From the NCBI GenBank assembly GCA_002011125.2, contig MTMF02000011.1:1-13208 (forward strand): 13,208 nt of DNA. Reading direction: 5' to 3'. Below the pieces are notes generated by a model. That model had not been told where the DNA came from. It saw only the letters and a list, made by a program, of their open reading frames with translations, and made no database searches. The stretch comes from Candidatus Hydrothermarchaeum profundi (GTDB lineage Archaea > Hydrothermarchaeota > Hydrothermarchaeia > Hydrothermarchaeales > Hydrothermarchaeaceae). The position numbers were made by a program, and so were the translations under genes. Positions 70-13,208 of the stretch are shown here, piece after piece. Position 1 is the stretch's first letter. The number at the start of each line of letters is the position of its first letter.

Positions 70-972
70 TTAATTATTATTATTTTTAATATTTAAGAAC
101 TTAAAATCCTTTTCTAATTTTATCAACTTCTTAATTTTTTTAGGATAGATCCCTACAAACTTGTCCAATTTAATTATTGTAGCGACTCCCACTTTTTTGG
201 CAAAACTTAAACCATTAATTATAGCATCTCTGATTTCTGAGTTAGATAATTCACCATGCCTCATGACAACTTTTTCTCCTCTGATATCGGTAAGGGGGTC
301 TAGATTTTCTGCGTACTCGTATTTAATTTTGGGAGAATCTACCACAACCCTATTGCCGATTAATGTCGCAAAAGTATCTGCAAGAGATGCAGATTTATTA
401 ATGCAAACCGTAGCCTCTGATATTCCTTTTGAAAAACTTCTTCCTCTGAAACCACTAGTACATATTCCTCCAATACTATTGTCCACTTCCATGACTCCGA
501 ATAAGTTCTCTTTAGCGTCTAACAGCCCTATTTTCGCACGTTCAACTCTTAAGGCGATGTCGCCATAATTATTGATTATAATGTACTCCGCTTCAGATTC
601 AAGTTCTTCTAGAATGCAATCCGAGATTGATCCTGCAACGCTAATTAAAGGTGTTGTTTTCTCTCCAAAAAATTCCTGACCAATTAACGCTGATTCCACC
701 ATTTTTTTTACAACTTTTGGAAGGCTTGAAATGTCTAATGGCTTACACCATGAAGTTACAATGTCTAGATTTCCTGCAACGTCCTCTAAAGTCTGGATTG
801 CAACAGATACTGTTCGATTAATCGCTCTTTCACTGACAAATATTGATTCTCCATCGTTTTTCGCTGTTATAACAAGGCCCATTGGGCCAAGATATATGTG
901 AAGCCTCATTTTGGAATCTAAAAAGTAAGTTAGGTCAGAGTAGTTCGACTTCATACTTTTTAATAAACTCAT
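70..972 (-). CDS. UPF0280 family protein (ApbE-like fold)
   Basis: A 300-residue protein recognisable as UPF0280, a family distantly related to the ApbE FMN transferases. Supporting segments are TPLISVAGSISDCILEEL (about residues 105-122), the IIINNYGDIALRV stretch (about 131-143), and GGICTSGFRGRSFSKGISEATV followed by SLADTFATLIGN (about 168-206), which match the conserved G/D-rich blocks of the family. No signal peptide or membrane segment is seen. Its start overlaps the end of the reductase gene by 38 bases, so the two are probably translationally coupled; an in-frame ATG at 954 would shorten the overlap and is possible because neither start has a strong ribosome binding site. The tail is Asn-rich (TTATTATTATT repeats) and probably unstructured. 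The biochemical function of UPF0280 is unknown to me; a role in flavin or cofactor handling for the neighbouring reductase is a guess from ApbE kinship. Confidence 0.85.
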   Translation of the reverse strand: MSLLKSMKSNYSDLTYFLDSKMRLHIYLGPMGLVITAKNDGESIFVSERAINRTVSVAIQTLEDVAGNLDIVTSWCKPLDISSLPKVVKKMVESALIGQEFFGEKTTPLISVAGSISDCILEELESEAEYIIINNYGDIALRVERAKIGLLDAKENLFGVMEVDNSIGGICTSGFRGRSFSKGISEATVCINKSASLADTFATLIGNRVVVDSPKIKYEYAENLDPLTDIRGEKVVMRHGELSNSEIRDAIINGLSFAKKVGVATIIKLDKFVGIYPKKIKKLIKLEKDFKFLNIKNNNN

Positions 973-2689
973 TATAACTCATTTTATTTTCTATATGTCC
1001 ACCTATTTCTTCGTAAACTTTTCTCTCCATCGTATACTCAATCGGAGCAACTATCGCAGGTGTTGGGACATAGGTTAAAGGATCTTTTCCCTTGATTTCT
1101 TCAACATTCACATAGAAGTTAATGCCCCCTCCTGGGAGTACAAAAGCTGGAGCTCCGCCAATAGTTAACTTTATTAGCCCTTTATGTACAGCTTCTGTAA
1201 CTTTTTTAGGAAACTTCGCCACTCCAGCTCTCGCACTACCACCTACCCCCCCGCAAAATAGCGCAGAAACTCCAGAATCTTCGCATGTATCAAATATCAT
1301 CTTGACCACTTTCTTGGCTTCTTCAGTAGGTTCTATTTCTTTTAACCTTTCTCCTCTCAACTCGAACATACTAAGGTGTTCTCCCGTTGTATCAGTTATT
1401 AAGACTCTCATGCCTTCCCAAGCGTAATTGAAGTCTATTTTTTTAATTGCGTCAAGTGGGTCCTTGATTGGTGTACCACCTATTCCGTCACCATGCTCAC
1501 CAAAGTAACGGCCGTCTGTACTCTTAACACCCCATGGGATTATACCCGAATATTTCATACCTAAGTACTTACCTGCATAGTGCTCTGAAAGGAGGCCAAT
1601 TATATGGGAGTCTAAAATTATTGCCTCATCAGCAACTTTCTTCAGATATGGTGCAAACATGCCTATAATCGCACTTCCACATCCTGCACGCATCTTTCTT
1701 ACCTTTTTCCCGTTAATTACTGGTTGTTTGCCAAGCTTAAATCTAATCCAGCTCTTTTTACCGATTTTTAATTCAACCTCTTTTCCATTCACAATGTCTA
1801 CTATTGTTCTTGCTGCTGTTAGTCCTGTTTTACTCTGCAGAATGTTTACCCCTCCAATATCTATCATTTTTGATCCATATTCTTCTGTCACAACTATCCC
1901 TACCTTTTTTCCGTCTCTGTATACAGTTTGACCTTCTGTTCCTATGAACTCATCAGTATCTATTTTTAGTTTCAAGTGGGAAAAGCTAAGAGGTGTTGCT
2001 GAAACAACTGTGACCACATCTACTCCTTCTACGTTACCTTCTACAATGATCGGGGCTGGTACAAAGTCGGGATATGTATTACCAGCCCCTACACCATAAA
2101 CTAGAGGTTCTCCGAATCTCTTCTGAGCTGGAACAGAGATTCTTCTGGATAGAACTAACCTCCCCCTCTCATTTTTATATCTTTTACAAGCCCCGTATTC
2201 TCCGTCTTTTATGGTACAAAAAACTGGACAACTCGTACATTTGATCCCTTTTGAGGGCAAAAATACGATGGCATTAAAGTTACACACTTTCTTGCAAGCT
2301 CCGCAATCAACGCATAACTTGGAGTTAACAAATGCCCTCTTTTTATCATCTGACTTTATGATATTTATAGCATTCTTTGGACACTCTTTAGCACATGAAC
2401 CGCATCCAGTACAATCATCCGTTATAAAGGCACTTCTGTTACCAATACCAATACTTGGCGCAGTAATGATTACATCGTCATTCTCAGCTAATTTGTAAGA
2501 TGCTAAGTTCCCCCGTATGGGTTGACTATTTACTAAAACCGTTATATTTCCTAACTTCTTTTTCAGCGAGTACTTTTCTTCGATAAAATTTAGTAACTCC
2601 CCTAACGTTCCACTTATGAGTTCGAACTCTTCCTTTGACTTCGTGGTGATACTCCTTACAGTAGTTAAATATCTCACACCAACCTTCAT
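935..2689 (-). CDS. hnr: 6-hydroxynicotinate reductase-like iron-sulfur protein with N-terminal MoaD-like domain
   Basis: 584 residues. The central and C-terminal parts look like the ferredoxin-dependent 6-hydroxynicotinate reductase family, which reduces 6-hydroxynicotinate to 1,4,5,6-tetrahydro-6-oxonicotinate in anaerobic nicotinate breakdown. Residues 93-103 (C93, C96, C99, C103) and 126-136 (C126, C129, C132, C136) form a classic 2x[4Fe-4S] ferredoxin module; C151, C154, C158 and C168 form a third cysteine group. The remaining ~400 residues are Gly-rich with a GGAPAFVLPGGGINFYV block near the C-terminus and no transmembrane segment, fitting a cytoplasmic enzyme. Residues 1-80 are an extra beta-grasp domain resembling MoaD/ThiS, ending APSIGIGN rather than Gly-Gly. 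The start ATG at 2689 has no good ribosome binding site; it is chosen because it begins the first beta strand of that domain. An enamidase gene in the same operon supports the assignment. I cannot exclude a related N-heterocycle as the true substrate. Confidence 0.75.
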   Translation of the reverse strand: MKVGVRYLTTVRSITTKSKEEFELISGTLGELLNFIEEKYSLKKKLGNITVLVNSQPIRGNLASYKLAENDDVIITAPSIGIGNRSAFITDDCTGCGSCAKECPKNAINIIKSDDKKRAFVNSKLCVDCGACKKVCNFNAIVFLPSKGIKCTSCPVFCTIKDGEYGACKRYKNERGRLVLSRRISVPAQKRFGEPLVYGVGAGNTYPDFVPAPIIVEGNVEGVDVVTVVSATPLSFSHLKLKIDTDEFIGTEGQTVYRDGKKVGIVVTEEYGSKMIDIGGVNILQSKTGLTAARTIVDIVNGKEVELKIGKKSWIRFKLGKQPVINGKKVRKMRAGCGSAIIGMFAPYLKKVADEAIILDSHIIGLLSEHYAGKYLGMKYSGIIPWGVKSTDGRYFGEHGDGIGGTPIKDPLDAIKKIDFNYAWEGMRVLITDTTGEHLSMFELRGERLKEIEPTEEAKKVVKMIFDTCEDSGVSALFCGGVGGSARAGVAKFPKKVTEAVHKGLIKLTIGGAPAFVLPGGGINFYVNVEEIKGKDPLTYVPTPAIVAPIEYTMERKVYEEIGGHIENKMSYNEFIKKYEVELL

Positions 2690-2740: not shown

Positions 2741-3043
2741 TTATCTCATCTTACTTAGAGTATTCGTTAAGCGCAACATCTGGTTCAACAACCTGTATTT
2801 ACCTCCCCTAGACACGAACTCGAACTGTTTACCGACTCCTTGGTAGGGTTGTACCCTTCTTTTTAATCCGTGTTTCACAAGGAACATTCTTTCCAAATTA
2901 ATTATCTGCCAATACATCGCCAGATCTTTCCTTAGACGCTGCACCCTCAATCCTAAGTTTTGAAATGAAATCTGCTGTGGCCTCATACTTTTATTCCTGC
3001 TAGGTTCTAATCCTACAATTACGTGTTTAAAGTTCTCAAGCAT
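2741..3043 (-). CDS. small basic protein of unknown function
   Basis: A 100-residue reading frame that I do not recognise. Its ATG overlaps the stop codon of the DUF1185 gene (TAATG), an arrangement typical of translational coupling, and it fills the otherwise empty 350-base interval before the reductase gene in the same direction. The protein is strongly basic (Arg and Lys far outnumber Asp and Glu), has no cysteine, no clear signal peptide and no membrane helix; the middle (about residues 30-60) looks helical. Codon use is similar to its neighbours. A small cofactor-assembly or accessory subunit is conceivable, but nothing in the sequence proves it. A chance open frame is the alternative, because a length of 100 codons alone is weak evidence in A+T-rich DNA. 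Confidence 0.5.
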   Translation of the reverse strand: MLENFKHVIVGLEPSRNKSMRPQQISFQNLGLRVQRLRKDLAMYWQIINLERMFLVKHGLKRRVQPYQGVGKQFEFVSRGGKYRLLNQMLRLTNTLSKMR

Positions 3044-3639
3044 TACCTAAGCCCATCTATCCCCTTTATTTCCTCCTTCTTCAACCCACCAACTCTGGGG
3101 TGAGGTCTACCACCGTTAGTCACCGCTACTGCAATTACGAGTTCGTCATCTCTTGGTGCATCGCTGATCGAAATGGTTACAGCATCAAAGTGTGATCTAA
3201 CGAAGGCTGCATCTTTGTAATGCAACGGTATATCCAGTGGTGTACCCATACAGCCATATTTCTTACTCGAAGGAATTATCGCCTTCCCTCCTCCAACTAC
3301 TTCCCGCATTGGCGCGCCAATCTTTGGGTGTAAAATTGCTGCTACATGTTCAAGCTCCCCCTTAGCACCTGCTATTCCTCCTTTACCGTAACTTTCAACA
3401 TTATCTTCAAGAATTTCAACTGCTCTTTCTGTCAAGATCTTTCCGAGTACTTCTCCCCACTCTATAAGCTTAGAGAGATCCTCTACATATTCGCCAGCGT
3501 AAGGGTTTTTTATAACAGCTGCACAAACGACTTTCTTAATCGGCCTTTCGACAGCTTTCCCCCCATCCATAAAAATTTCTTCGGAGTAAGTAACAATTTT
3601 CCTTATTTCCATACCTTTTAAATCCACTTCTATGCTCAT
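3043..3639 (-). CDS. DUF1185 / 'amino acid synthesis' (PF06684-type) protein
   Basis: 198 residues from the ATG at 3639, which has a strong GGGGGTG ribosome binding site 6 bases upstream; a GTG at 3648 lies inside that site and is a poorer choice. The protein resembles the DUF1185/AA_synth family: an early IRKIV strand, KVVCAAVIKNPYAGEYVEDLS in the first quarter, a conserved HVAAILHPKIGAPMREVVGGGKAIIPS segment in the middle, and a DDELVIAVAVTNGGRPHPRVGG block near the end. It is soluble by appearance. The family name suggests amino acid synthesis but I know of no firmly established reaction. It sits between the aldehyde dehydrogenase (13-base gap) and the small basic gene (overlapping TAATG), so it probably takes part in the same ring-cleavage pathway. 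From memory such proteins recur beside amidohydrolases and hydroxynicotinate reductases in bacteria; this could not be checked here. Confidence 0.8.
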   Translation of the reverse strand: MSIEVDLKGMEIRKIVTYSEEIFMDGGKAVERPIKKVVCAAVIKNPYAGEYVEDLSKLIEWGEVLGKILTERAVEILEDNVESYGKGGIAGAKGELEHVAAILHPKIGAPMREVVGGGKAIIPSSKKYGCMGTPLDIPLHYKDAAFVRSHFDAVTISISDAPRDDELVIAVAVTNGGRPHPRVGGLKKEEIKGIDGLR

Positions 3640-3652
3640 TTTGCACACCCCC

Positions 3653-5119
3653 TTAACCTCTTTTACCTAGCCACCTAGATACCACTACTTTTTTATCGGT
3701 GTAGAAATCAATTGCATCGTTTGCTCTACCCCTAGTTGAACCGTAAAATGATGTCTTTCTCCCTCCTACCGGGTAAAACGCGATTGGAGCTGGGGTTCCC
3801 ACGTTTATGCCAATTTGCCCAGTATTAACCATTCTCACGAAATCTCTTGCGTACTTTCCACATTCCGTATAGATTACTGCAGTATGACCGTATTTACTTT
3901 GGTTTATTATTGAAATCGCTTCTTCGAAGTTTTTAACACTCTTAACACACCTTATGGGTCCAAATACCTCTTCATCAAACACTTTCATTCCTGGCTCAGC
4001 TTCAAATACAGTAGGGGCTAAAAAGTACCCTTTCGGATATTTTTCGACCTTGTATTTTCTCCCATCAAGTATCAATTTTGCTCCCTCTTTGATAGCTAGG
4101 TCAATCTCGTTTAGAAGTCTTTTTAAAGCTTCTTTCGTCACTACTGGCCCCATTGTAACATCTTTATCCATACCATAACCTAGTTTGATTTCCTTTACCT
4201 GTTTTAGGAACTTGTCTATGAATTCGTCATATATTTCTTCGATTACTAGAATGTTAGATATTGCAAAACATCTCTCGCTTACATGGCCAAAACAAGAATT
4301 TACAAGGTTTTGCATAATACCATCCAGATTTGTATCTTCCATAACTAAGGCATGGTTATTCGCACCTCCTTGGCACTGAGCCCTTTTGCCGTGGGATGTT
4401 GCAAGTTTATAAACTTCTTCGGCAGCCCTCGAAGAACCCACAAAAGTAACACCCACAACATCTTTGTTCGTAACTAAAGCCCTTCCAACCTCTGCACCTC
4501 CGTGAACGACATTTATAACGCCTTTAGGATAACCTACTTCGTGGCATAATCCTATAATTTCATTTGTTGTCATGGGACAAATCTCACTCGGTTTAATTAT
4601 CACTGTATTCCCAGCTGCTACCGCCCATCCAAAGTAGAGTGGTATCATTGCTGGAAAGTTAAAAGGTGGAAGTATAATGAAAGGTCCTAATGGTTCGCGA
4701 ATGTAGTACTCGTCAACTCCTCTACCCACATCTTCTGAAAAACTCCCTTTAAGGAGTTCTGTAATTGCACAGGCGTGCTCGACGTATTGTATTCCTCTCA
4801 TCAATTCCTGCATAGCTTCTTCGAACGTCTTACCATGCTCGTTAACTATTATTTCAGCGAGCCTCTCTTTGTTCTCTTCTAATTTATATTTTAGCTCGAA
4901 CAAGTATTCCGCCCTGACTGGCGGAGGAGTTTGCCTCCATTCCCAAAAAGCCTCTTTAGCGCTTTTAACAGCCTCATTTACTTCCTCATTGGTAGACATT
5001 GGACATAGAGCTATTACTTCGTCAAAAGCTGGATTAGTTACCTCTATGTACTCACAGCTTTTAGATTCTATAAATCTTCCTCCTATATAATTCTTCAATT
5101 TTACTACTATTTCAATCAC
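3653..5119 (-). CDS. CoA-acylating semialdehyde dehydrogenase, methylmalonate-semialdehyde dehydrogenase type
   Basis: Aldehyde dehydrogenase superfamily, 488 residues from a GTG at 5119 that overlaps the end of the enamidase gene by 8 bases; a TTG at 5137 would add six residues. Features mark the methylmalonate-semialdehyde subgroup rather than ordinary aldehyde dehydrogenases: PPFNFPAMIP (about residues 151-160), GGANNHALVM (about 251-260, where classical enzymes have the general-base Glu), SERCFA with catalytic Cys284 preceded by an Arg, and GGRKTSFYGS near the C-terminus. Such enzymes oxidise malonate-type semialdehydes with NAD+ and coenzyme A, release the carboxylate as CO2 and yield an acyl-CoA. 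An Arg in MRGIQYVEH and the Arg before the catalytic Cys fit carboxylate binding in that family. Next to an enamidase, the likely substrate is 2-formylglutarate, giving glutaryl-CoA + CO2 + NADH; that substrate is inference. Methylmalonate or malonate semialdehyde is the alternative. Confidence 0.9.
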   Translation of the reverse strand: MIEIVVKLKNYIGGRFIESKSCEYIEVTNPAFDEVIALCPMSTNEEVNEAVKSAKEAFWEWRQTPPPVRAEYLFELKYKLEENKERLAEIIVNEHGKTFEEAMQELMRGIQYVEHACAITELLKGSFSEDVGRGVDEYYIREPLGPFIILPPFNFPAMIPLYFGWAVAAGNTVIIKPSEICPMTTNEIIGLCHEVGYPKGVINVVHGGAEVGRALVTNKDVVGVTFVGSSRAAEEVYKLATSHGKRAQCQGGANNHALVMEDTNLDGIMQNLVNSCFGHVSERCFAISNILVIEEIYDEFIDKFLKQVKEIKLGYGMDKDVTMGPVVTKEALKRLLNEIDLAIKEGAKLILDGRKYKVEKYPKGYFLAPTVFEAEPGMKVFDEEVFGPIRCVKSVKNFEEAISIINQSKYGHTAVIYTECGKYARDFVRMVNTGQIGINVGTPAPIAFYPVGGRKTSFYGSTRGRANDAIDFYTDKKVVVSRWLGKRG

Positions 5120-6281
5120 CCCCTTTTGTAATTTCAATCATTCTATATGGTGGAGGTGTATACTTGCTTTTTACAACCTTAATGTCACCATTAATTAAAA
5201 CAGCAGAAATTCCTGGCACATCTCCATTCTTTAAAGCTTCAAGCGCAGTATCTCCAACACCTCCCATGGGCACATCTGCAAAAACCAAGTCTGCCTCCTT
5301 TCCAGTTTCTATAACGCCCGTATTCAAACCATAAACTCTCGCAGTGTTTCCAGTAGCTAGCGAAATTGCCTTTTCTGGTTCAAGTTCGCAAATAGATGAG
5401 ATGAAGGCCAGCAATCTAAGGACGGCTAAAGGTATAATTCCCGTCCCAGAAGGAGAATCCGTTCCTAGAACCACCCTTTCGAGAGCATTTTTATTTCTTA
5501 TGTATTTCAATATTTCTTGTAAAGCTTTCAGATTTCCACAATAGACAAATTCTAAGATTATATCAGTTTCGTCCACTATTCTGAATGCATCTTCCAGCGG
5601 CATGGCAGTCGGACCACCATTGATGTGTCCCACTATGTCAGGGTGAATTGCAATTACTTCCTCTGCACCTATGGTTGTACTTTCTGGAATTGAAGTGCCG
5701 CCAGTGTGCATTTTTACTTTCATGCCGTACTTCCTAGCGAGTTGAACAAGTGGTTTAACATCTTCAGGTTTGTACGCGCTACCTAGTCCGATTTCTCCTA
5801 CCAGCCACACACCATGATGGGCCAGTTCCTTGAAATCATCTTCCGTCATTCCCTTTTCTAGAATAACTGCACCGGCGTGAACCTTTACACCACTTGGTCT
5901 CATGTTGTCAAAACTTTTCCTTGCAAGTATCGCTAGTGCTTTGGCACCCACAATATCTCTGGGCCTTCCAGGCATATGTGGTTCGCCAGCAGAAATCATT
6001 GTTGTTACCCCACCATGAAGATAACCTGAAATCCACCCTATGGTATTTTGCCTTGGTGTATAGTCTCCGAAAACGGGATGAACGTGTGCATCTATAAGCC
6101 CTGGGAACACGGTATTGCCATTTGCATCTATCACTACATCGAAATTTTTATCGCCCAACTCATTTTCAAATCCAATAAATGCTATTTTACCATTATCCAA
6201 AACCAAGCAGTCTCCTTCTAAGATTGGTTCCTCCAACTTTCCAGACACTATCACGCCAATATTTCGAATTTTTACTTCCAT
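5112..6281 (-). CDS. ena: enamidase-like amidohydrolase (6-oxo-1,4,5,6-tetrahydronicotinate hydrolase)
   Basis: Binuclear-metal amidohydrolase of 389 residues, close to the ~385 of Eubacterium barkeri enamidase, which opens 6-oxo-tetrahydronicotinate to 2-formylglutarate with loss of ammonia. Visible probable metal ligands are H66 and H68 (GLIDAHVHP), E163 (LVGEIGLG), H192 (KMHTGG), H219 (IVGHINGG) and D275 (LGTDSPSG). The glutamate in place of a carbamylated lysine as metal bridge, and the MHTGGTSIPEST segment, point to enamidase rather than dihydroorotase or hydantoinase. The N- and C-terminal beta strands of the composite barrel are present (residues 1-55; EADLVFADV and ISAVLINGDIKVV). Start ATG 6281 has GGTGAG four bases upstream; a longer frame to 6374 would cross the TATA-like element and operator and is rejected. 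It is the first gene of the catabolic operon and is followed by the aldehyde dehydrogenase with an 8-base overlap. Exact ring substrate is inferred from family and context. Confidence 0.8.
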   Translation of the reverse strand: MEVKIRNIGVIVSGKLEEPILEGDCLVLDNGKIAFIGFENELGDKNFDVVIDANGNTVFPGLIDAHVHPVFGDYTPRQNTIGWISGYLHGGVTTMISAGEPHMPGRPRDIVGAKALAILARKSFDNMRPSGVKVHAGAVILEKGMTEDDFKELAHHGVWLVGEIGLGSAYKPEDVKPLVQLARKYGMKVKMHTGGTSIPESTTIGAEEVIAIHPDIVGHINGGPTAMPLEDAFRIVDETDIILEFVYCGNLKALQEILKYIRNKNALERVVLGTDSPSGTGIIPLAVLRLLAFISSICELEPEKAISLATGNTARVYGLNTGVIETGKEADLVFADVPMGGVGDTALEALKNGDVPGISAVLINGDIKVVKSKYTPPPYRMIEITKGGD

Positions 6282-6370: not shown

Positions 6371-6650
6371 TCACTCAATATTAGTGACCTCCAGCTCAGA
6401 GTCGAACGAACTGTTAAATGGAAACCTGTTATGAAATCTCCTAGTTCTGTCTTTAAGCTGGGAAAACAGGCTTTCAATGGAGTTTCTTCTTCCAAACGTT
6501 TCGTGTTAATACTTTAAGCCAACCTCCTCAAAACCCAGAGACACCAGAATCCTTTATCAACCACCACTTCCGGCTTGTTCTCGCAGCATCTCAGCACTTC
6601 TTTGAGGAAAACGTAGGCGTGGAAGTTTGGTTTGTTATCAGAACCTCAAA
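6371..6650 (-). pseudogene. C-terminal half of a decayed DDE transposase (archaeal IS6-like)
   Basis: In broken minus-strand frames the DNA encodes recognisable transposase segments: FEVLITNQ, then NFHAYVFLKEVLRCCENKP, then EVVVDKGFWCLWVLRRL (second catalytic Asp), then in a shifted frame [19 protein letters not shown] (catalytic Glu) and [20 protein letters not shown], ending at a stop at 6371. At least two frameshifts and one in-frame TAA separate them, so it is inactive. The N-terminal DNA-binding half and first catalytic Asp are absent here. This accounts for most of the 450-base gap between the two divergent operons. Family attribution is from pattern memory of archaeal IS elements. Confidence 0.75.
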
Positions 6651-6680
6651 TAAACGGCATATCGCTAGTTCCCTAGAGAC

Positions 6681-6698
6681 ACCAAAAAATTCATATAG
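6681..6698 (+). promoter_or_regulatory. archaeal BRE/TATA promoter of the ABC importer operon
   Basis: ACCAAAAAATTCATATAG contains a purine-rich BRE-like run and a TATA-like TTCATATAG centred near 6694. A start of transcription about 25 bases downstream, near 6719, would leave a leader of about 14 bases before the ATG at 6733. Confidence 0.5.
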
Positions 6699-6702
6699 TG
6701 TG

Positions 6703-6721
6703 TTAACAATTAATCGTTTAG
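6703..6721 (+). promoter_or_regulatory. putative operator of the ABC importer operon
   Basis: TTAACAATTAATCGTTTAG, aligned with the 19-bp sites of the catabolic and regulator promoters. The right arm (AATCGTTTAG) is well kept and the left arm is weaker. The centre is about 18 bases after the TATA centre, the same geometry as at the other two promoters. Confidence 0.5.
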
Positions 6722-6732
6722 TGGTGGTTGAG

Positions 6733-8004
6733 ATGGGAGGGTTTACGCGAAGAGATTTTATAAAAAGAACTATGGCTATTGGTATAGGCTCTACTCTTTT
6801 TGGTACAACCTTAATGGGTTGTGCAGGAGAGAAACCTGAAGAGAAGAAAGAACCTATTAAAGTGGGGCATTTAGCCGATTTAACAGGCGGCTTAGCCATT
6901 TACGGTTACTCACACGATAAAACACTGAACGCTGCTGTTAGAAGAATAAACGCTGAAGGTGGAATAGGGGGAAGGCCGGTAGAGATATACACAGAAGATA
7001 CAGAATCCAACGTTTCAACCGCAACGACAAGAATGAGAAAACTTATCGAATACTACAAGGTGGATTTTATAATTGGTTCTAATCATTCAGGAATTAATAT
7101 AGCGTGCAATCCAATTGCGAAGGAATTAAAGACAATTTTCTGGCCAACATCTGGGGCCATTAGTATAACCGGTGACCAAGGAAATCGCTACGTTTTCAGA
7201 ATGTGTAGTAATGTTAGAAGTGAGATAAAAGGTGCTGCGAACTGGGCAGTTGAGAACCTTGGAAGAAAGTGGGCCACAATTGTAGTAAACTATGCTTGGG
7301 GATGGTCCAATGAAGACGAATTCAAGAAAAGAGTTTCGGAAGCTGGTGGTAAGATAGTTAAATCTATAAGGGCACCCATGGGGACTAAGGATTTCATACC
7401 CTATGTAAACCAAATACCGGAGGATGTGGATGCGGTTTTCATTGCCTTCTTCAGCACTGATCTACTTTCACTTCTAAAAGATCTTTATGTATTAAGACCA
7501 AACATACAAAAGATGGTTGCATTGTATGGACTAAGCGGAATAGATACAACAAAACTTGGTGAGATGGTTGAGGATGTTACTATAATAAGTACCTTCCCAA
7601 GAAGACTTGAAGGGTTCGATACGCCGTACACGAGAGAATTTAGAAAAGCTATCGGTGTAGATCCTAAAGGTAGGGAAGTAGGAAACCCTTCAATGATATA
7701 CGCACTGCCATACGACTGGGCAGTCTGGGAAGCAATGTTTGCGATGAAAAAAGCTATTGAAGAATCTGGATGGTCAGGCAAGGAAGATAACCCGGATTTA
7801 ATCAAAACCCTTGAAGGGATTGAATTCAAAGAGAGCATAGAATTCCCACAGGGTGATGTAACTATTAGAGCGCAAGACCATCAGGCATTCATGCAACTCT
7901 TTATCGAAGGAGTTAAAAATGGCAAGTTAAAAGTCTTGGCAAGAATTCCTGCTGAAGAAACAATATATCCTTATGAGGTAGATTTCACTCAGGAGGCTTT
8001 TTGA
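6733..8004 (+). CDS. ABC transporter substrate-binding lipoprotein, branched-chain amino acid/amide (HAAT) type, Tat-exported
   Basis: 423 residues from the ATG at 6733, with GGTGGT four bases upstream; a longer open frame from 6619 covers the promoter, operator and transposase remnant and is not used. The N-terminus has a twin-arginine motif (TRRDFIK, residues 5-11), a hydrophobic stretch, and a lipobox LMGC with lipid-carrying Cys30, followed by a charged linker. From residue ~38 it is a type I periplasmic binding protein: KVGHLADLTGGLAIYGYS, AVRRINAEGGIGGRPVEI, and FIIGSNHSGINIACNPIA, as in LivK, AmiC and UrtA relatives. It would capture substrate outside the membrane and deliver it to the two permeases encoded next. 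The ligand cannot be read from the sequence. Being divergent to, and sharing an operator with, a nicotinate-type catabolic operon, it more likely binds nicotinate, 6-hydroxynicotinate or a related carboxylate than leucine. Confidence 0.9.
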   Translation: MGGFTRRDFIKRTMAIGIGSTLFGTTLMGCAGEKPEEKKEPIKVGHLADLTGGLAIYGYSHDKTLNAAVRRINAEGGIGGRPVEIYTEDTESNVSTATTRMRKLIEYYKVDFIIGSNHSGINIACNPIAKELKTIFWPTSGAISITGDQGNRYVFRMCSNVRSEIKGAANWAVENLGRKWATIVVNYAWGWSNEDEFKKRVSEAGGKIVKSIRAPMGTKDFIPYVNQIPEDVDAVFIAFFSTDLLSLLKDLYVLRPNIQKMVALYGLSGIDTTKLGEMVEDVTIISTFPRRLEGFDTPYTREFRKAIGVDPKGREVGNPSMIYALPYDWAVWEAMFAMKKAIEESGWSGKEDNPDLIKTLEGIEFKESIEFPQGDVTIRAQDHQAFMQLFIEGVKNGKLKVLARIPAEETIYPYEVDFTQEAF

Positions 8005-8032
8005 ATTTTTTAAAAGGTTCAGGAGGTCTATG

Positions 8033-8902
8033 GTGCCAATTGAACCCACAATTGTTAATAAAATTATCCTAGCCATTTTGAATGGAGTTGTATGGGCGCT
8101 CATCATAGCACTGGTAGCTCTGGGACTTACCCTCATCTTTGGTCTTATGGATATAGTAAACATAGCCCATGGAGACTTCTACATGCTTGGAGCTGTATTA
8201 GCATGGTACGGAGTTGCTTTGTTCAATAATTTCTGGCTTGGTGCGGTAATGGCAATGATATTTACAGCGATACTTGGAGCTGTGGTAGAGCGTAGTATAA
8301 TAAGACCCGTTGAGGGGCTACCAGCATTTACAGTTGTAGTCACCATAGGCCTTTCATACATCATCCAACAATCCGTTTTGGCTACCTTTGGTGGTTCTCC
8401 TCAAACCGTGCCCGAACCTATCCGTTTAACCATAGAATTCTTAGGTATAAGATATCCTGCCTACAGATTGTTTGTAGCAGGAGTTTCAGGGTTGGCCCTT
8501 ATCGCTTTAGGAGTTTTCCTTTTTAAAACACCCTATGGACTTTGGATTAGGGCCTCTATGCAAGATAAAGAAATAGCAAGCGCAATGGGCATTAACGTTA
8601 GCAATGTTTACATCATGACATTTAGCTTGGGTGCTATGCTTTCAGCACTGGGTGGTGCTCTCGCAGCCCCTATAACACAAGTTTTTTACCTAATGGGACT
8701 AGACGTGCTTGCTATTTCATTTATTATCGTTATAATAGGTGGTCTTGGTAGCTTGAAAGGGACACTGATTGCAGCTTTCATCATCTCTCTCTTGGAGAAC
8801 TTCATAACCCTTGTAGCCACACCAACGGAAGCAAGAGTCATATCATTGCTTATAATGGGAGCAGTACTTCTGATACGGCCGAAAGGGCTTTTTAGCACAT
8901 AA
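8033..8902 (+). CDS. livH: ABC transporter permease, LivH type
   Basis: About 289 residues, hydrophobic throughout with roughly eight membrane segments. Family marks include the N-terminal ALVALGLTLIFGLMDIVNIAHGDFYMLGA (a LivH hallmark: Asn-Ile-Ala-His-Gly before the second helix), the cytoplasmic coupling loop RASMQDKEIASAMGINVSNVY, and the closing VLLIRPKGLF. A strong AGGAGGT lies 5 bases before GTG 8033 and only 2 bases before ATG 8030, so the GTG is preferred although the ATG would add just one residue. It forms the inner-membrane channel with the LivM-type protein; gap to the receptor gene is 28 bases. Confidence 0.93.
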   Translation: MPIEPTIVNKIILAILNGVVWALIIALVALGLTLIFGLMDIVNIAHGDFYMLGAVLAWYGVALFNNFWLGAVMAMIFTAILGAVVERSIIRPVEGLPAFTVVVTIGLSYIIQQSVLATFGGSPQTVPEPIRLTIEFLGIRYPAYRLFVAGVSGLALIALGVFLFKTPYGLWIRASMQDKEIASAMGINVSNVYIMTFSLGAMLSALGGALAAPITQVFYLMGLDVLAISFIIVIIGGLGSLKGTLIAAFIISLLENFITLVATPTEARVISLLIMGAVLLIRPKGLFST

Positions 8903-8905
8903 GGG

Positions 8906-9883
8906 GTGATAATCATTTCAAACAGTAAGATTAAAAATTTTAATATCATGAAAAACAGGCTCATATTGTATGTGTTGGTATTGGTAATATTGTTCTCGTT
9001 GGGTTTTACTCTTCCTACAGATATGCGATCCTTATCCATTGATATTTTTATTTTCGCCATTTATGCAATGGCCTATGACATACTTTATGGTTATACCGGC
9101 CAGTTTAGCTATGGCCAAGCCGTGTTTTTTGGGGTTGCAGCATACGGCCTTCTATTACCAGTACTTCATACTAATACAAATCTCTGGGTTTCATTAACAA
9201 TAGCATTGGTAATAACAGTTGTGTTTGGAATAGTGTTGGGCTTTTTAGCAGTTAGGCTTGGTGGGGCGTATTTTGTAATAATTACAATTATCTTCAATCT
9301 CACATTTTACTTAATAGCTCTCGATTGGATTTGGCTTACAGGTGGAGATGATGGGCTAACGTTTAGAGCTCCAAAAATAGAGTTTGGCGTGTTTAGTCTT
9401 TCGCTATATGATCCAGTTGTCACCTATTATTTCATGCTATCCTTTTTACTGGCAAGTTACCTAATTTTAAAAAGGCTGATATCATCTCCAATTGGTAAAG
9501 TACTGATAGCAATCAGAGAAAACGAGGAGCGAGCGCAATTAATCGGTTATAACGTTTTTCGATATAAACTTCTAGCATACGTTGTCTCAGCATTATTCAC
9601 TGGCTTAAGCGGTGCGCTTTATTCTCTAAGGACCCGCTACGCCTCTGCTGATTACTTTAACATAGCTTTATCGGTCCAACCTATAATATGGACCTTAGTA
9701 GGTGGCGCAGGAACTCTGACAGGACCAATAGTTGGTGTTATACTCATAAATCCCCTAATCTACTACATAGGTGTATGGTGGAAACACTACCTATCAATTA
9801 TAGGAGCACTCATGATTTTTGTTGTGATATACTCTCCCAAAGGGATTGTAGGCAATCTCATAAATAAAATAGAAAAAAGTTAG
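8906..9883 (+). CDS. livM: ABC transporter permease, LivM type
   Basis: 325 residues if the GTG at 8906 is used; that codon sits inside a GGGGTGAT Shine-Dalgarno-like run, so the start could instead be a later codon such as ATG 8948, which would remove 14 mostly polar residues. The membrane part starts at about residue 17. LivM marks are YDILYGYTGQFSYGQAVFFGVAAYG (about 54-78), the loop GKVLIAIRENEERAQLIGYNVFRYK, and IIWTLVGGAGTLTGPIVG near the end. It pairs with the LivH-type permease and begins 3 bases after that gene's stop. Confidence 0.93.
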   Translation: MIIISNSKIKNFNIMKNRLILYVLVLVILFSLGFTLPTDMRSLSIDIFIFAIYAMAYDILYGYTGQFSYGQAVFFGVAAYGLLLPVLHTNTNLWVSLTIALVITVVFGIVLGFLAVRLGGAYFVIITIIFNLTFYLIALDWIWLTGGDDGLTFRAPKIEFGVFSLSLYDPVVTYYFMLSFLLASYLILKRLISSPIGKVLIAIRENEERAQLIGYNVFRYKLLAYVVSALFTGLSGALYSLRTRYASADYFNIALSVQPIIWTLVGGAGTLTGPIVGVILINPLIYYIGVWWKHYLSIIGALMIFVVIYSPKGIVGNLINKIEKS

Positions 9884-9900
9884 AACAGGGAGGATAATGA

Positions 9901-10659
9901 ATGAAAGACTCAGAAAAAAGTATCATAATTGAAACACATGAGTTAACAAAGAGTTTTGGAGGATTAGTCGCTTTAAACAATGTAAATCTTAGAATTCCAA
10001 AAGGTGAACTCAGAGCCATCATTGGACCTAACGGAGCCGGGAAATCCACCTTGCTGAATACAATAACTGGACGTCTTACTCCAACCTCAGGAGAGATATA
10101 CTTTCTGGGTGAAAAAATAACTGGACTTCCACCACATGAAATAGCAAGGCGAGGAATAGCGCTGTCACTCCAAATAGTACAAGTATTTCCGAATTTGTCT
10201 GTTTTCGATAATATCTGGTTAGGAGTTAAAATGAGATTTAAGACGAGGAACCCGTTTATTCATTGGAGACAATTAAAGGTAATTGAGGAGAAGGTTATCG
10301 AGATATGCAAGAAGATCGGACTTGAAAATAAAATTGATGAAATAGCTTCTAACCTTTCTCATGGTGATCAGAGGCTTCTAGATATAGCAATAGCTTTAAG
10401 CACCAATCCGAAATTACTTCTCCTAGATGAACCCCTCGCAGGTCTAAGTGTTAAAGAAAGAAGGCATGTGAGTAACTTGATCAAGGAATTATCCCAAGAA
10501 AAAACTATTATCTTGATAGAACACGATATAGACGCAGTTATGCGATTAGCAGATAGAATAACAGTTCTAGATAGAGGTAGGGTAATTGCAGAAGGTACAC
10601 CTCGTGAGATAAGTGAAGATCGGCAAGTTCAGGAAGTTTATATAGGAAGTAGAGAATGA
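9901..10659 (+). CDS. livG: ABC transporter ATP-binding protein, LivG type
   Basis: 252-residue ATPase. Walker A GPNGAGKST at 42-50, Q-loop Gln91 (or Gln94) in SLQIVQVFPNLSVFDN, signature LSHGDQR at 152-158, Walker B LLLLDEP at 172-178, and switch His208 in LIEHD. The QVFPNLSVFDNI segment and the RGRVIAEGTPREI tail are LivG-like. The signature deviates from the usual LSxGxQ only at tolerated positions. AGGGAGGAT precedes the ATG by a few bases. It powers the importer together with the LivF-type subunit. Confidence 0.95.
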   Translation: MKDSEKSIIIETHELTKSFGGLVALNNVNLRIPKGELRAIIGPNGAGKSTLLNTITGRLTPTSGEIYFLGEKITGLPPHEIARRGIALSLQIVQVFPNLSVFDNIWLGVKMRFKTRNPFIHWRQLKVIEEKVIEICKKIGLENKIDEIASNLSHGDQRLLDIAIALSTNPKLLLLDEPLAGLSVKERRHVSNLIKELSQEKTIILIEHDIDAVMRLADRITVLDRGRVIAEGTPREISEDRQVQEVYIGSRE

Positions 10660-10671
10660 TGAGGTGTTAAC

Positions 10672-11388
10672 ATGTTAAGAGTTGAAGATGTGGATGTGTT
10701 TTACGGTAAGAGTCATATATTGCACGGAATCGAAATGGATATCCAGCATGGCCAAATTGTGGCACTTTTGGGCAGAAATGGTGTAGGCAAGACGACTACT
10801 ATAAAGACTATAATAGGGATCCTAAAACCAAAAAAGGGGAGAATAATATTTGAAGGTCAAGAAATCTCCAAAATACCTACTCACGAGATAGCTAGAATAG
10901 GAATAAGTTACGTTCCACAGGGTCGAAGATTATTTAATAAATTAACAGTTCTTGAAAATATTATTATAGGACTTACAGTAAAAAAAGAATTAAGAAATAA
11001 TGAGTCTTATCAAGATAAAATAAAAAAAGTTTTAGAAATCTTTCCGCAATTGGAAAGTCTACTAAATAGGCCAGTAGAAACTCTAAGTGGAGGTGAACAA
11101 CAAATGGTCGCTATAGCTAGAGCATTGGTAACGAATCCCAAGTTGTTGCTAATGGATGAACCTAGCGAGGGTTTAATGCCTGTACTTGTACAAAAGTTAG
11201 GTGACACAATAAAATTAATTAATCAAATGGGTGTCACAATTCTCCTTACAGAACAAAACGTATCCATGGCTCTAAAAATTGCTGACAAAGTATATATAAT
11301 GGATAACGGTGAGATAAGATTTAAAGGAAACCCTACTAGGCTTTTGAAGGACGAAGATCTGCTTTTAAAATATCTAGGCGTAAGATGA
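10672..11388 (+). CDS. livF: ABC transporter ATP-binding protein, LivF type
   Basis: 238-residue second ATPase. Walker A GRNGVGKTT at 34-42, Q-loop Gln83 in YVPQGRRLFNKLTVLEN, signature LSGGEQQ at 138-144, Walker B LLLMDEP at 158-164, then SEGLMPVLV and LLTEQNV, where Gln occupies the switch position as usual for LivF. It follows the LivG-type gene by 12 bases with a GAGGTG ribosome binding site. It is the last gene of the operon; I see no clear terminator after it, only A-rich DNA leading into a transposase remnant. Confidence 0.95.
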   Translation: MLRVEDVDVFYGKSHILHGIEMDIQHGQIVALLGRNGVGKTTTIKTIIGILKPKKGRIIFEGQEISKIPTHEIARIGISYVPQGRRLFNKLTVLENIIIGLTVKKELRNNESYQDKIKKVLEIFPQLESLLNRPVETLSGGEQQMVAIARALVTNPKLLLMDEPSEGLMPVLVQKLGDTIKLINQMGVTILLTEQNVSMALKIADKVYIMDNGEIRFKGNPTRLLKDEDLLLKYLGVR

Positions 11389-11966: not shown

Positions 11967-12923
11967 TTACAATTCCTCAAGCAATTCATAGTCAATTACA
12001 TCAACCATTAATTCCAGTTCAACGTTTATTCCTTGTTCTTTTAGTATTAGTAAGGGCGTCGAAGAAGCTACGATAGTTATACCTAATTGATCACTATTTA
12101 CTGGAAGTCCAAGAACTTCTTGATTGGGCTTACCTATTTTCAAAAATCCGTTTATCTTGCATTTCTTCAATTTAGCGGAGATATCAATAACCTCTTGGTA
12201 ACAAATACCTGGGATAACTCTGAATGTTGCTGGACACTCCCCACAACCATTAGTGAGAATGCTTAATGCTGAAAAAGACTTAGCACGAAAGAGGTCTACT
12301 GATGTAATAGAGGATGTCTCATACCCTACCATATCTATAAATCTAACAGGTTCACCATGTTTAAATTCGACCACTCCACCATATCTTAAATGTACGTTAA
12401 TTCCTCTTCTTAATAAAACACCATCAACTGCTATTCCATTTATGTAATACATCCCAACTTCATCCTCAGATAGTAGTTCACCGTCCTCTATGACTTTAAC
12501 TAAAGGAGATATAGCTAATTTTCGTTTATAGCATTCTTTAAATATATCAATTACTTCATCTAAATAATCTTTTTTAAACTTGCAGAAATTTACAAGTATC
12601 TTTCCTTTCTTTGTTTCTGGATTAAAATTAGACATGAACATGTATTCTTCCTTTCTAGTTAACAATGTACTGACTCTAGCCATAACATTTGCTCTTTCAA
12701 GTTCAGATAAACCTTTTTGAGTAATTTTTCTACCCAAATTCTTTACTTTAAAGACATACCCTCGTTCCTCAAGTATCCTCAGATGATACCTAATTGCAGC
12801 TTCGCTTAGTTCGATGCCAACTTCTTTCAGTTTTTCAGAAAGTTTTTTGGATCCCATTGGATCTCTTTCGTCTCTCAGTATTGAGAGAATAGTATGTCTA
12901 ATTTCTTCGTTAGATAACAACAT
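11967..12923 (-). CDS. NrpR-like transcriptional repressor (winged helix + one NrpR/DUF128 domain)
   Basis: 318 residues. Residues 1-75 form a winged helix (RHTILSILRDERDPMGSKKL, then LSEAAIRYHLRILEERGYV). Residues ~85-318 match one NrpR effector domain: ISPLVKVIEDGE, VDGVLLRRGINVHLRYGGVVEFKHGEPVRFIDMVGYE, and SVDLFRAKSFSALSIL. NrpR proteins of methanogens repress nitrogen genes and are released by 2-oxoglutarate; here the domain occurs once, as in NrpRI-type proteins. No nitrogen-assimilation gene is in the window. The gene sits beyond the importer operon, has its own promoter, and a 19-bp site overlaps its start codon, suggesting autoregulation. With a TATA element only ~26 bases upstream of the ATG, the mRNA is probably leaderless. 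A catabolic dicarboxylate chemically near 2-oxoglutarate (2-formylglutarate, glutarate) is a plausible inducer; this is inference. Confidence 0.88.
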   Translation of the reverse strand: MLLSNEEIRHTILSILRDERDPMGSKKLSEKLKEVGIELSEAAIRYHLRILEERGYVFKVKNLGRKITQKGLSELERANVMARVSTLLTRKEEYMFMSNFNPETKKGKILVNFCKFKKDYLDEVIDIFKECYKRKLAISPLVKVIEDGELLSEDEVGMYYINGIAVDGVLLRRGINVHLRYGGVVEFKHGEPVRFIDMVGYETSSITSVDLFRAKSFSALSILTNGCGECPATFRVIPGICYQEVIDISAKLKKCKINGFLKIGKPNQEVLGLPVNSDQLGITIVASSTPLLILKEQGINVELELMVDVIDYELLEEL

Positions 12924-12953: not shown

Positions 12954-13155
12954 TTCTTCGCTTTAATAGAGTTAAAATTAAAATTAAGATATTAACACAT
13001 TTATTTATACTTCCTTGTTCTCGTTGATAGAGATAAGCAAGTTCTAGGGCTTTCCACATTCAGTAACCTAATCTCTTAGCCATCTCACACCTTCTAACTT
13101 TAAACAAATAATCATCGAGCCTTCCCCAAAAAAGAAATATTCTATAATAAGGCCC
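12949..13155 (-). other. broken open frame at the right edge, unidentified
   Basis: One minus-strand frame is open for 31 codons, is broken by a single TGA at 13060-13062, and continues for 36 codons to 12949. It reads GRLDDYLFKVRRCEMAKRLG, then MWKALELAYLYQREQGSINK, which looks like protein rather than noise but matches no family I can name. It may be the decayed end of a gene or mobile element lying to the right. The last 50 bases show only short frames. Apart from this and the regulator promoter I see nothing in 12955-13208. Confidence 0.25.
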
Positions 13156-13208
13156 TTACAAAACCACCACTTAAATCTTAACTCTAACAACTCTAAACCA
13201 AAAACAAC

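Follow-up and report, generated by a model that had tools for sequence, protein, structure and literature searches.

The minus-strand operon discussed here lies in a stretch of DNA of 13,208 nucleotides (the window) and is probably (we put it at roughly 0.55) an anaerobic THON-type operon for nicotinate or 6-hydroxynicotinate catabolism with a new downstream entry to glutaryl-CoA. Tentatively, and at slightly less than even odds, we suggest that this entry depends on a new activity, a decarboxylating, CoA-acylating 2-formylglutarate dehydrogenase derived from an archaeal methylmalonate-semialdehyde dehydrogenase (MMSDH), that would let an anaerobic archaeon pass from nicotinate ring opening to glutaryl-CoA in a single step. 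A preliminary description of the same DNA had proposed a new branch of nicotinate catabolism. Glutaryl-CoA as a late intermediate is already known from Azorhizobium, where it is reached via free glutarate, and the novelty is thereby narrowed to the direct CoA-acylating entry and, possibly, an archaeal host.

In the proposed pathway, a Liv-type transporter would import the acid (nicotinate or 6-hydroxynicotinate), a ferredoxin-fused 6-hydroxynicotinate reductase would form 1,4,5,6-tetrahydro-6-oxonicotinate, and an enamidase would hydrolyze this compound, releasing ammonia and 2-formylglutarate, a carboxyethyl-substituted malonate semialdehyde. The MMSDH-type enzyme would hold 2-formylglutarate as a thiohemiacetal on the catalytic Cys while a hydride is passed to NAD+; the α-carboxylate would be lost as CO2 and the acyl group transferred to CoA, giving glutaryl-CoA. 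The net step would be 2-formylglutarate + NAD+ + CoA → glutaryl-CoA + CO2 + NADH. Glutaryl-CoA dehydrogenase would then convert glutaryl-CoA to crotonyl-CoA and CO2.

A THON-type nicotinate cluster is expected to encode an enamidase and a 6-hydroxynicotinate reductase, and the window has a gene for each. The enamidase gene (positions 5112 to 6281, minus strand) encodes 389 aa if translation starts at ATG 6281, as these coordinates assume; the reading frame is open from GTG 6374. Its product is 55.3% identical over 376 aa to the crystallized Eubacterium barkeri enamidase (PDB 2vun; phmmer E = 1.2e-136), which bears out the enamidase-like hydrolase of the preliminary description. The second-best PDB match reaches only 7e-9, and other PDB amidohydrolases score far lower. 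Enamidase converts 1,4,5,6-tetrahydro-6-oxonicotinate to 2-formylglutarate and NH3. The reductase homologue (935 to 2689, minus strand; 584 aa), assigned by homology to annotated reductases and by its Fer4 domains, aligns with the annotated enzymes over residues 149 to 567. It is 42% identical over 448 columns to one 6-hydroxynicotinate reductase and 40 to 43% identical to most proteins annotated as such. Residues 1 to 148 form an extra N-terminal region with a MoaD-like part (a weak match) and a 2[4Fe-4S] ferredoxin part that contains the Fer4 domains.

The reductase gene is overlapped by a UPF0280 gene (70 to 972, minus strand; PRK04334 models), and in bacteria UPF0280 likewise travels with the reductase. 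The window protein is 27% identical to a Sulfitobacter UPF0280 whose gene adjoins that organism's reductase gene, and it weakly matches PDB 2o34 (E = 1.7e-6). UPF0280 is ApbE-like, so a role in flavin attachment to the reductase is conceivable. The operon extends as far as position 70 and past the contig end; in a longer copy of the contig, the start of a flavoprotein-like ORF, MEEKFDAIVVGAGASGLGAAYKLAKYGFNVV, lies just beyond the left end of the window.

On the other side of the reductase gene lies an AA_synth gene (PF06684/DUF1185; 3043 to 3648, minus strand, with a probable start at ATG 3639; Pfam E = 8e-73), the product of which is about 50 to 60% identical to the AA_synth neighbors of bacterial enamidases. 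Between the two, an ORF of 100 aa (2741 to 3043, minus strand) starts in a TAATG overlap with the AA_synth gene, matches no family and occupies the place of the second AA_synth gene of bacteria. We considered whether it is a broken copy of that gene and rejected this, as no similarity between it and the second AA_synth paralogue could be detected; the ORF is possibly spurious or decayed. The plus strand carries a Liv-type ABC transporter, consisting of a substrate-binding lipoprotein (Peripla_BP_6; 6619 to 8004; Pfam E = 1e-56) with a twin-arginine and lipobox-like N terminus, followed at 8030 to 11388 by LivH (8030 to 8902), LivM (8906 to 9883), LivG (9901 to 10659), and LivF (10672 to 11388), assigned from the LivG family match and the Liv operons beside bacterial clusters. 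An NrpR-type regulator gene (HTH_12 and NRD1_2; 11967 to 12923, minus strand; PF01995 E = 6e-66) lies beyond the transporter genes. Between the divergent operons, positions 6397 to 6475 hold a degenerate transposase-like remnant, 78 to 80% alike to two contigs (L020, 78%, and L024) of the archaeal bin JdFR-43.

The combination of enamidase, reductase, UPF0280, AA_synth, and Liv transporter recurs in proteobacteria. We compared 87 enamidase neighborhoods (79 proteobacterial stretches and eight plasmid loci with an enamidase homologue): AA_synth is present in 56 of them, UPF0280 in 27, the reductase in 25, and a Liv transporter in about 30. Two plasmids, one from Sulfitobacter and one from a member of the Comamonadaceae, carry the annotated gene set. 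AA_synth, the function of which is unknown, is a conserved companion of enamidase, also where the reductase is not nearby. The same module makes up the conserved nicotinate cluster of Azorhizobium caulinodans and Bradyrhizobiaceae; the published clusters contain nicotinate dehydrogenase genes, and the A. caulinodans pathway passes through glutarate (PMC3511419). Reductase, UPF0280, AA_synth, and ABC transporter, a set that makes the locus fuller than the preliminary description had it, mark the window as holding a THON-type cluster for nicotinate or 6-hydroxynicotinate. An MMSDH gene occurs in none of the 87 neighborhoods (0/87), which yielded no second MMSDH-enamidase pair; the few aldehyde dehydrogenases present there are generic and 25 to 29% identical to that of the window.

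In bin G000 (2.19 Mb; one 1.92-Mb contig, one 135-kb contig, and fragments), the window is contig C11; contig MTNE01000018.1 (L001/L046) of JdFR-43 matches it without a difference along the full 13,208 bases. The same contig has thus been binned in two unrelated archaeal genomes: the rRNA region of G000 matches a JdFR-43 contig at 80% over 749 bp only, and the bins look like different lineages. Both come from sub-seafloor ridge-flank fluid. By tetranucleotide signature, the contig is a poor fit to either bin (r = 0.56 with G000, 0.60 with all JdFR-43 contigs compared, and 0.56 with the JdFR-43 core). Its composition and the repeats it shares suggest that it was binned wrongly in G000 and perhaps also in JdFR-43; most likely, it belongs to a third organism that has yet to be placed. 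An archaeon is the likely, though not certain, host, given the NrpR-type regulator and the grouping of the MMSDH with haloarchaeal members. The archaeal setting put forward in the preliminary description is weakened by a contig that sits in two unrelated archaeal bins. Scanning contigs with the single window enamidase protein recovered JdFR-43's own copy, Rhodoplanes, one weak match, and no more; in the phyla of both bins, no archaeal enamidase was found besides that of the window contig itself. A plasmid of Haloarcula sp. GH36 (L119, 14986 to 16128) encodes an enamidase homologue (39.5%) annotated as a hypothetical protein, with the reductase not nearby.

The search for nicotinate dehydrogenase that the preliminary description had called for came out negative: the molybdenum enzyme (PF02738) is absent from G000, JdFR-43, and the window operon. 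The enoyl-CoA hydratase that would act on crotonyl-CoA (PF00378) is absent from both bins as well, although the organism that owns the contig may be represented by neither. Because nicotinate dehydrogenase is missing from both, 6-hydroxynicotinate could be the substrate. An operon that serves 6-hydroxynicotinate only, or another N-heterocycle, with an enamidase product that need not be 2-formylglutarate, would account for this absence and for the enamidase relatives that sit in clusters without 6-hydroxynicotinate reductase. However, the same ring chemistry is indicated by the reductase homologue and by an enamidase 55% identical to that of E. barkeri, and the bins searched may not be the true host. 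We consider this reading unlikely, although it deserves some weight, and retain a nicotinate or 6-hydroxynicotinate operon that leads to 2-formylglutarate.

The gene between enamidase and AA_synth encodes the MMSDH-type, CoA-acylating aldehyde dehydrogenase, our candidate for a decarboxylating 2-formylglutarate dehydrogenase (3653 to 5137, minus strand). Its possible starts are TTG 5137 (used here), GTG 5119, and TTG 5098. The overlap with the enamidase gene noted earlier holds to the extent that it may be up to 26 bp; it hinges on the start codon, and the ends may merely abut. The family assignment made in the preliminary description is confirmed: the protein scores 484.4 bits against TIGR01722 (CoA-acylating MMSDH, NCBIfam), the curated cut-off of which is 448.5 bits, and its best ten PDB matches are all MMSDHs (359 to 412 bits), after which the score falls to 234 bits. 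In a tree with other aldehyde dehydrogenases, as had been recommended, it lands inside the MMSDH clade, beside haloarchaeal MMSDHs (support 96/93), on the longest end branch of that clade (1.33). It is also the sole Aldedh protein detected in G000.

Conserved and altered positions can be set side by side. The catalytic Asn (PFNFP) and Cys (SERC) are kept, two of the MMSDH marks named before. The third, GANNH, proves to be a departure, since 14 of 14 other family members have GAKNH, and the Glu base it was thought to replace belongs to another column: where hydrolytic aldehyde dehydrogenases have this Glu, the window protein has Gln256 (...QGGANNH), and the Glu base is missing. Further changes, which like GANNH are placed close to the active site, are a Trp-to-Tyr replacement and the loss of one residue (after PFNFPAMIPL) in the helix that follows the catalytic Asn, and HVSERCF in place of the SAGERCM of ordinary MMSDHs. 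In all, the protein departs at 18 of 93 conserved columns (those kept in at least 13 of the 14 ordinary MMSDHs compared), whereas the ordinary members, judged likewise against each other, depart at 0 to 14. The departures and the deletion are as expected if the substrate pocket has changed. They also bear on whether this is an ordinary MMSDH that acts on malonate or methylmalonate semialdehyde in valine, thymine, β-alanine, or inositol breakdown and stands in the operon by chance. Its clear family membership and its 37 to 44% identity to ordinary MMSDHs fit such a role; the longest branch of the clade, the excess of departures, the position of the gene between enamidase and AA_synth with ends overlapping or abutting, and a window that carries no valine, inositol, or β-alanine genes all weigh against it and make it quite improbable.

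Two arginines speak to the decarboxylation itself. Arg114 (in an RGI.. motif) and the Arg before Cys in SERC are kept in the window protein, are common to all 14 MMSDHs compared, and are absent from hydrolytic aldehyde dehydrogenases (the succinate-semialdehyde dehydrogenases aligned). In work on Bacillus subtilis MMSDH, they reportedly bind the carboxylate group that the substrate goes on to lose. The pattern of kept and altered positions fits an enzyme in which decarboxylation and CoA acylation persist on an altered substrate. Alternatively, 2-formylglutarate might first be decarboxylated, spontaneously or in a separate step, to glutarate semialdehyde, and the MMSDH-like enzyme would only acylate this to glutaryl-CoA. 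The arginines would then be needless, the substrate being an unbranched ω-aldehyde acid. β-Formyl acids are labile, however, and 2-formylglutarate, being one, could shed CO2 at high temperature unaided, so that an enzyme on a contig from ridge-flank fluid bins may act on glutarate semialdehyde and give the same product. In Azorhizobium, too, decarboxylation reportedly precedes oxidation (Kitts, 1992). The published account of the A. caulinodans cluster confirms only the glutarate route (PMC3511419). On balance we judge prior decarboxylation an improbable but serious contender and prefer a combined decarboxylating, CoA-acylating step.

What follows glutaryl-CoA can be traced outside the window. 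JdFR-43 has a single acyl-CoA dehydrogenase gene, and the best nine PDB matches of its product are all glutaryl-CoA dehydrogenases (438 bits to 2eba); the first clearly different match, a peroxisomal acyl-CoA oxidase, scores 301 bits. The genome search for this enzyme, also advised in the preliminary description, gave one in JdFR-43, on a contig with a shared end, and none in G000. The first 101 bases of that contig (G023:C28, L020) and of the window contig are identical, after which the two diverge; positions 13144 to 13208 of the window (no strand assigned) are part of this exact terminus. The 101-bp stretch was not found elsewhere in either bin, and no other end-sharing pairs were seen among the JdFR-43 contigs compared. 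Assembly produces common ends roughly one k-mer long when two contigs run into a single graph node, and the two contigs therefore likely derive from the same or a nearly identical genome. Alternatively, two species could both carry this terminus as a mobile repeat, for which an IS110 transposase gene on the glutaryl-CoA dehydrogenase contig counts. On the same contig (L020, 1860 to 3200 and 7986 to 8975), glutaryl-CoA dehydrogenase lies near sucCD, an NrpR-type regulator, and a CxxCH-rich (multiheme cytochrome-like) gene.

Together, the MMSDH traits, the enamidase module, and the linked glutaryl-CoA dehydrogenase gene favor direct conversion of 2-formylglutarate to glutaryl-CoA. All three grounds lend support to the route suggested in the preliminary description, in which the substrate, the product, and the direction of flow are what we infer from them. 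The claim that the E. barkeri branch has no counterpart in the window also stands: no genes of this type were seen there, and a PrpF-type methylitaconate isomerase (PF04303) is absent from both bins. An E. barkeri-type route (through hydroxymethylglutarate and methyleneglutarate mutase) elsewhere in the host is conceivable, as the bins searched may not be the true host; that such a route carries the flux seems very improbable with this isomerase in neither bin and glutaryl-CoA dehydrogenase linked instead. Our search of the open-access literature found nothing on conversion of 2-formylglutarate to glutaryl-CoA.

To our knowledge, only two fates of 2-formylglutarate have been described, the mutase route of E. 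barkeri and the route of Azorhizobium through glutarate, and we know of no glutaryl-CoA shortcut in other nicotinate degraders. If the proposal is correct, it would add a third, one-step fate that conserves NADH and a thioester and needs neither the CoA transfer used in Azorhizobium nor the E. barkeri mutase reactions. It would also extend MMSDH chemistry to a larger substituted malonate semialdehyde. If the host is archaeal as well, nicotinate breakdown would, as far as we know, be described for an archaeon for the first time.

Compared with known systems, the operon combines familiar parts. The E. barkeri pathway, which Alhapel et al. are said to have described in 2006, reportedly leads through 6-hydroxynicotinate reductase and enamidase steps to 2-formylglutarate, which is said to be reduced to 2-hydroxymethylglutarate before methyleneglutarate mutase acts. 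The window shares the two steps (with an enamidase 55% identical) and differs in having an MMSDH gene after the enamidase gene, with no genes of the hydroxymethylglutarate and mutase route seen. With A. caulinodans and Bradyrhizobiaceae, it shares the module of reductase, enamidase, UPF0280, AA_synth, and Liv-type ABC transporter; those clusters carry nicotinate dehydrogenase genes, whereas the window operon has none. In Azorhizobium, the ring-opened product is reportedly (Kitts et al., 1992) decarboxylated and oxidized to glutarate, which gives glutaryl-CoA by CoA transfer, whereas the window would use a one-step CoA-acylating oxidation. Glutaryl-CoA dehydrogenase (decarboxylating; PDB 1siq and 2eba) is encoded outside the window and is linked to it by the shared contig end and the bin. 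Finally, the dehydrogenase resembles MmsA and IolA in family, catalytic Cys and Asn, both arginines, the missing Glu base, and its CoA-acylating class, and differs from them in its 37 to 44% identity, GANNH for GAKNH, Tyr for Trp, the helix deletion, and HVSERCF for SAGERCM.
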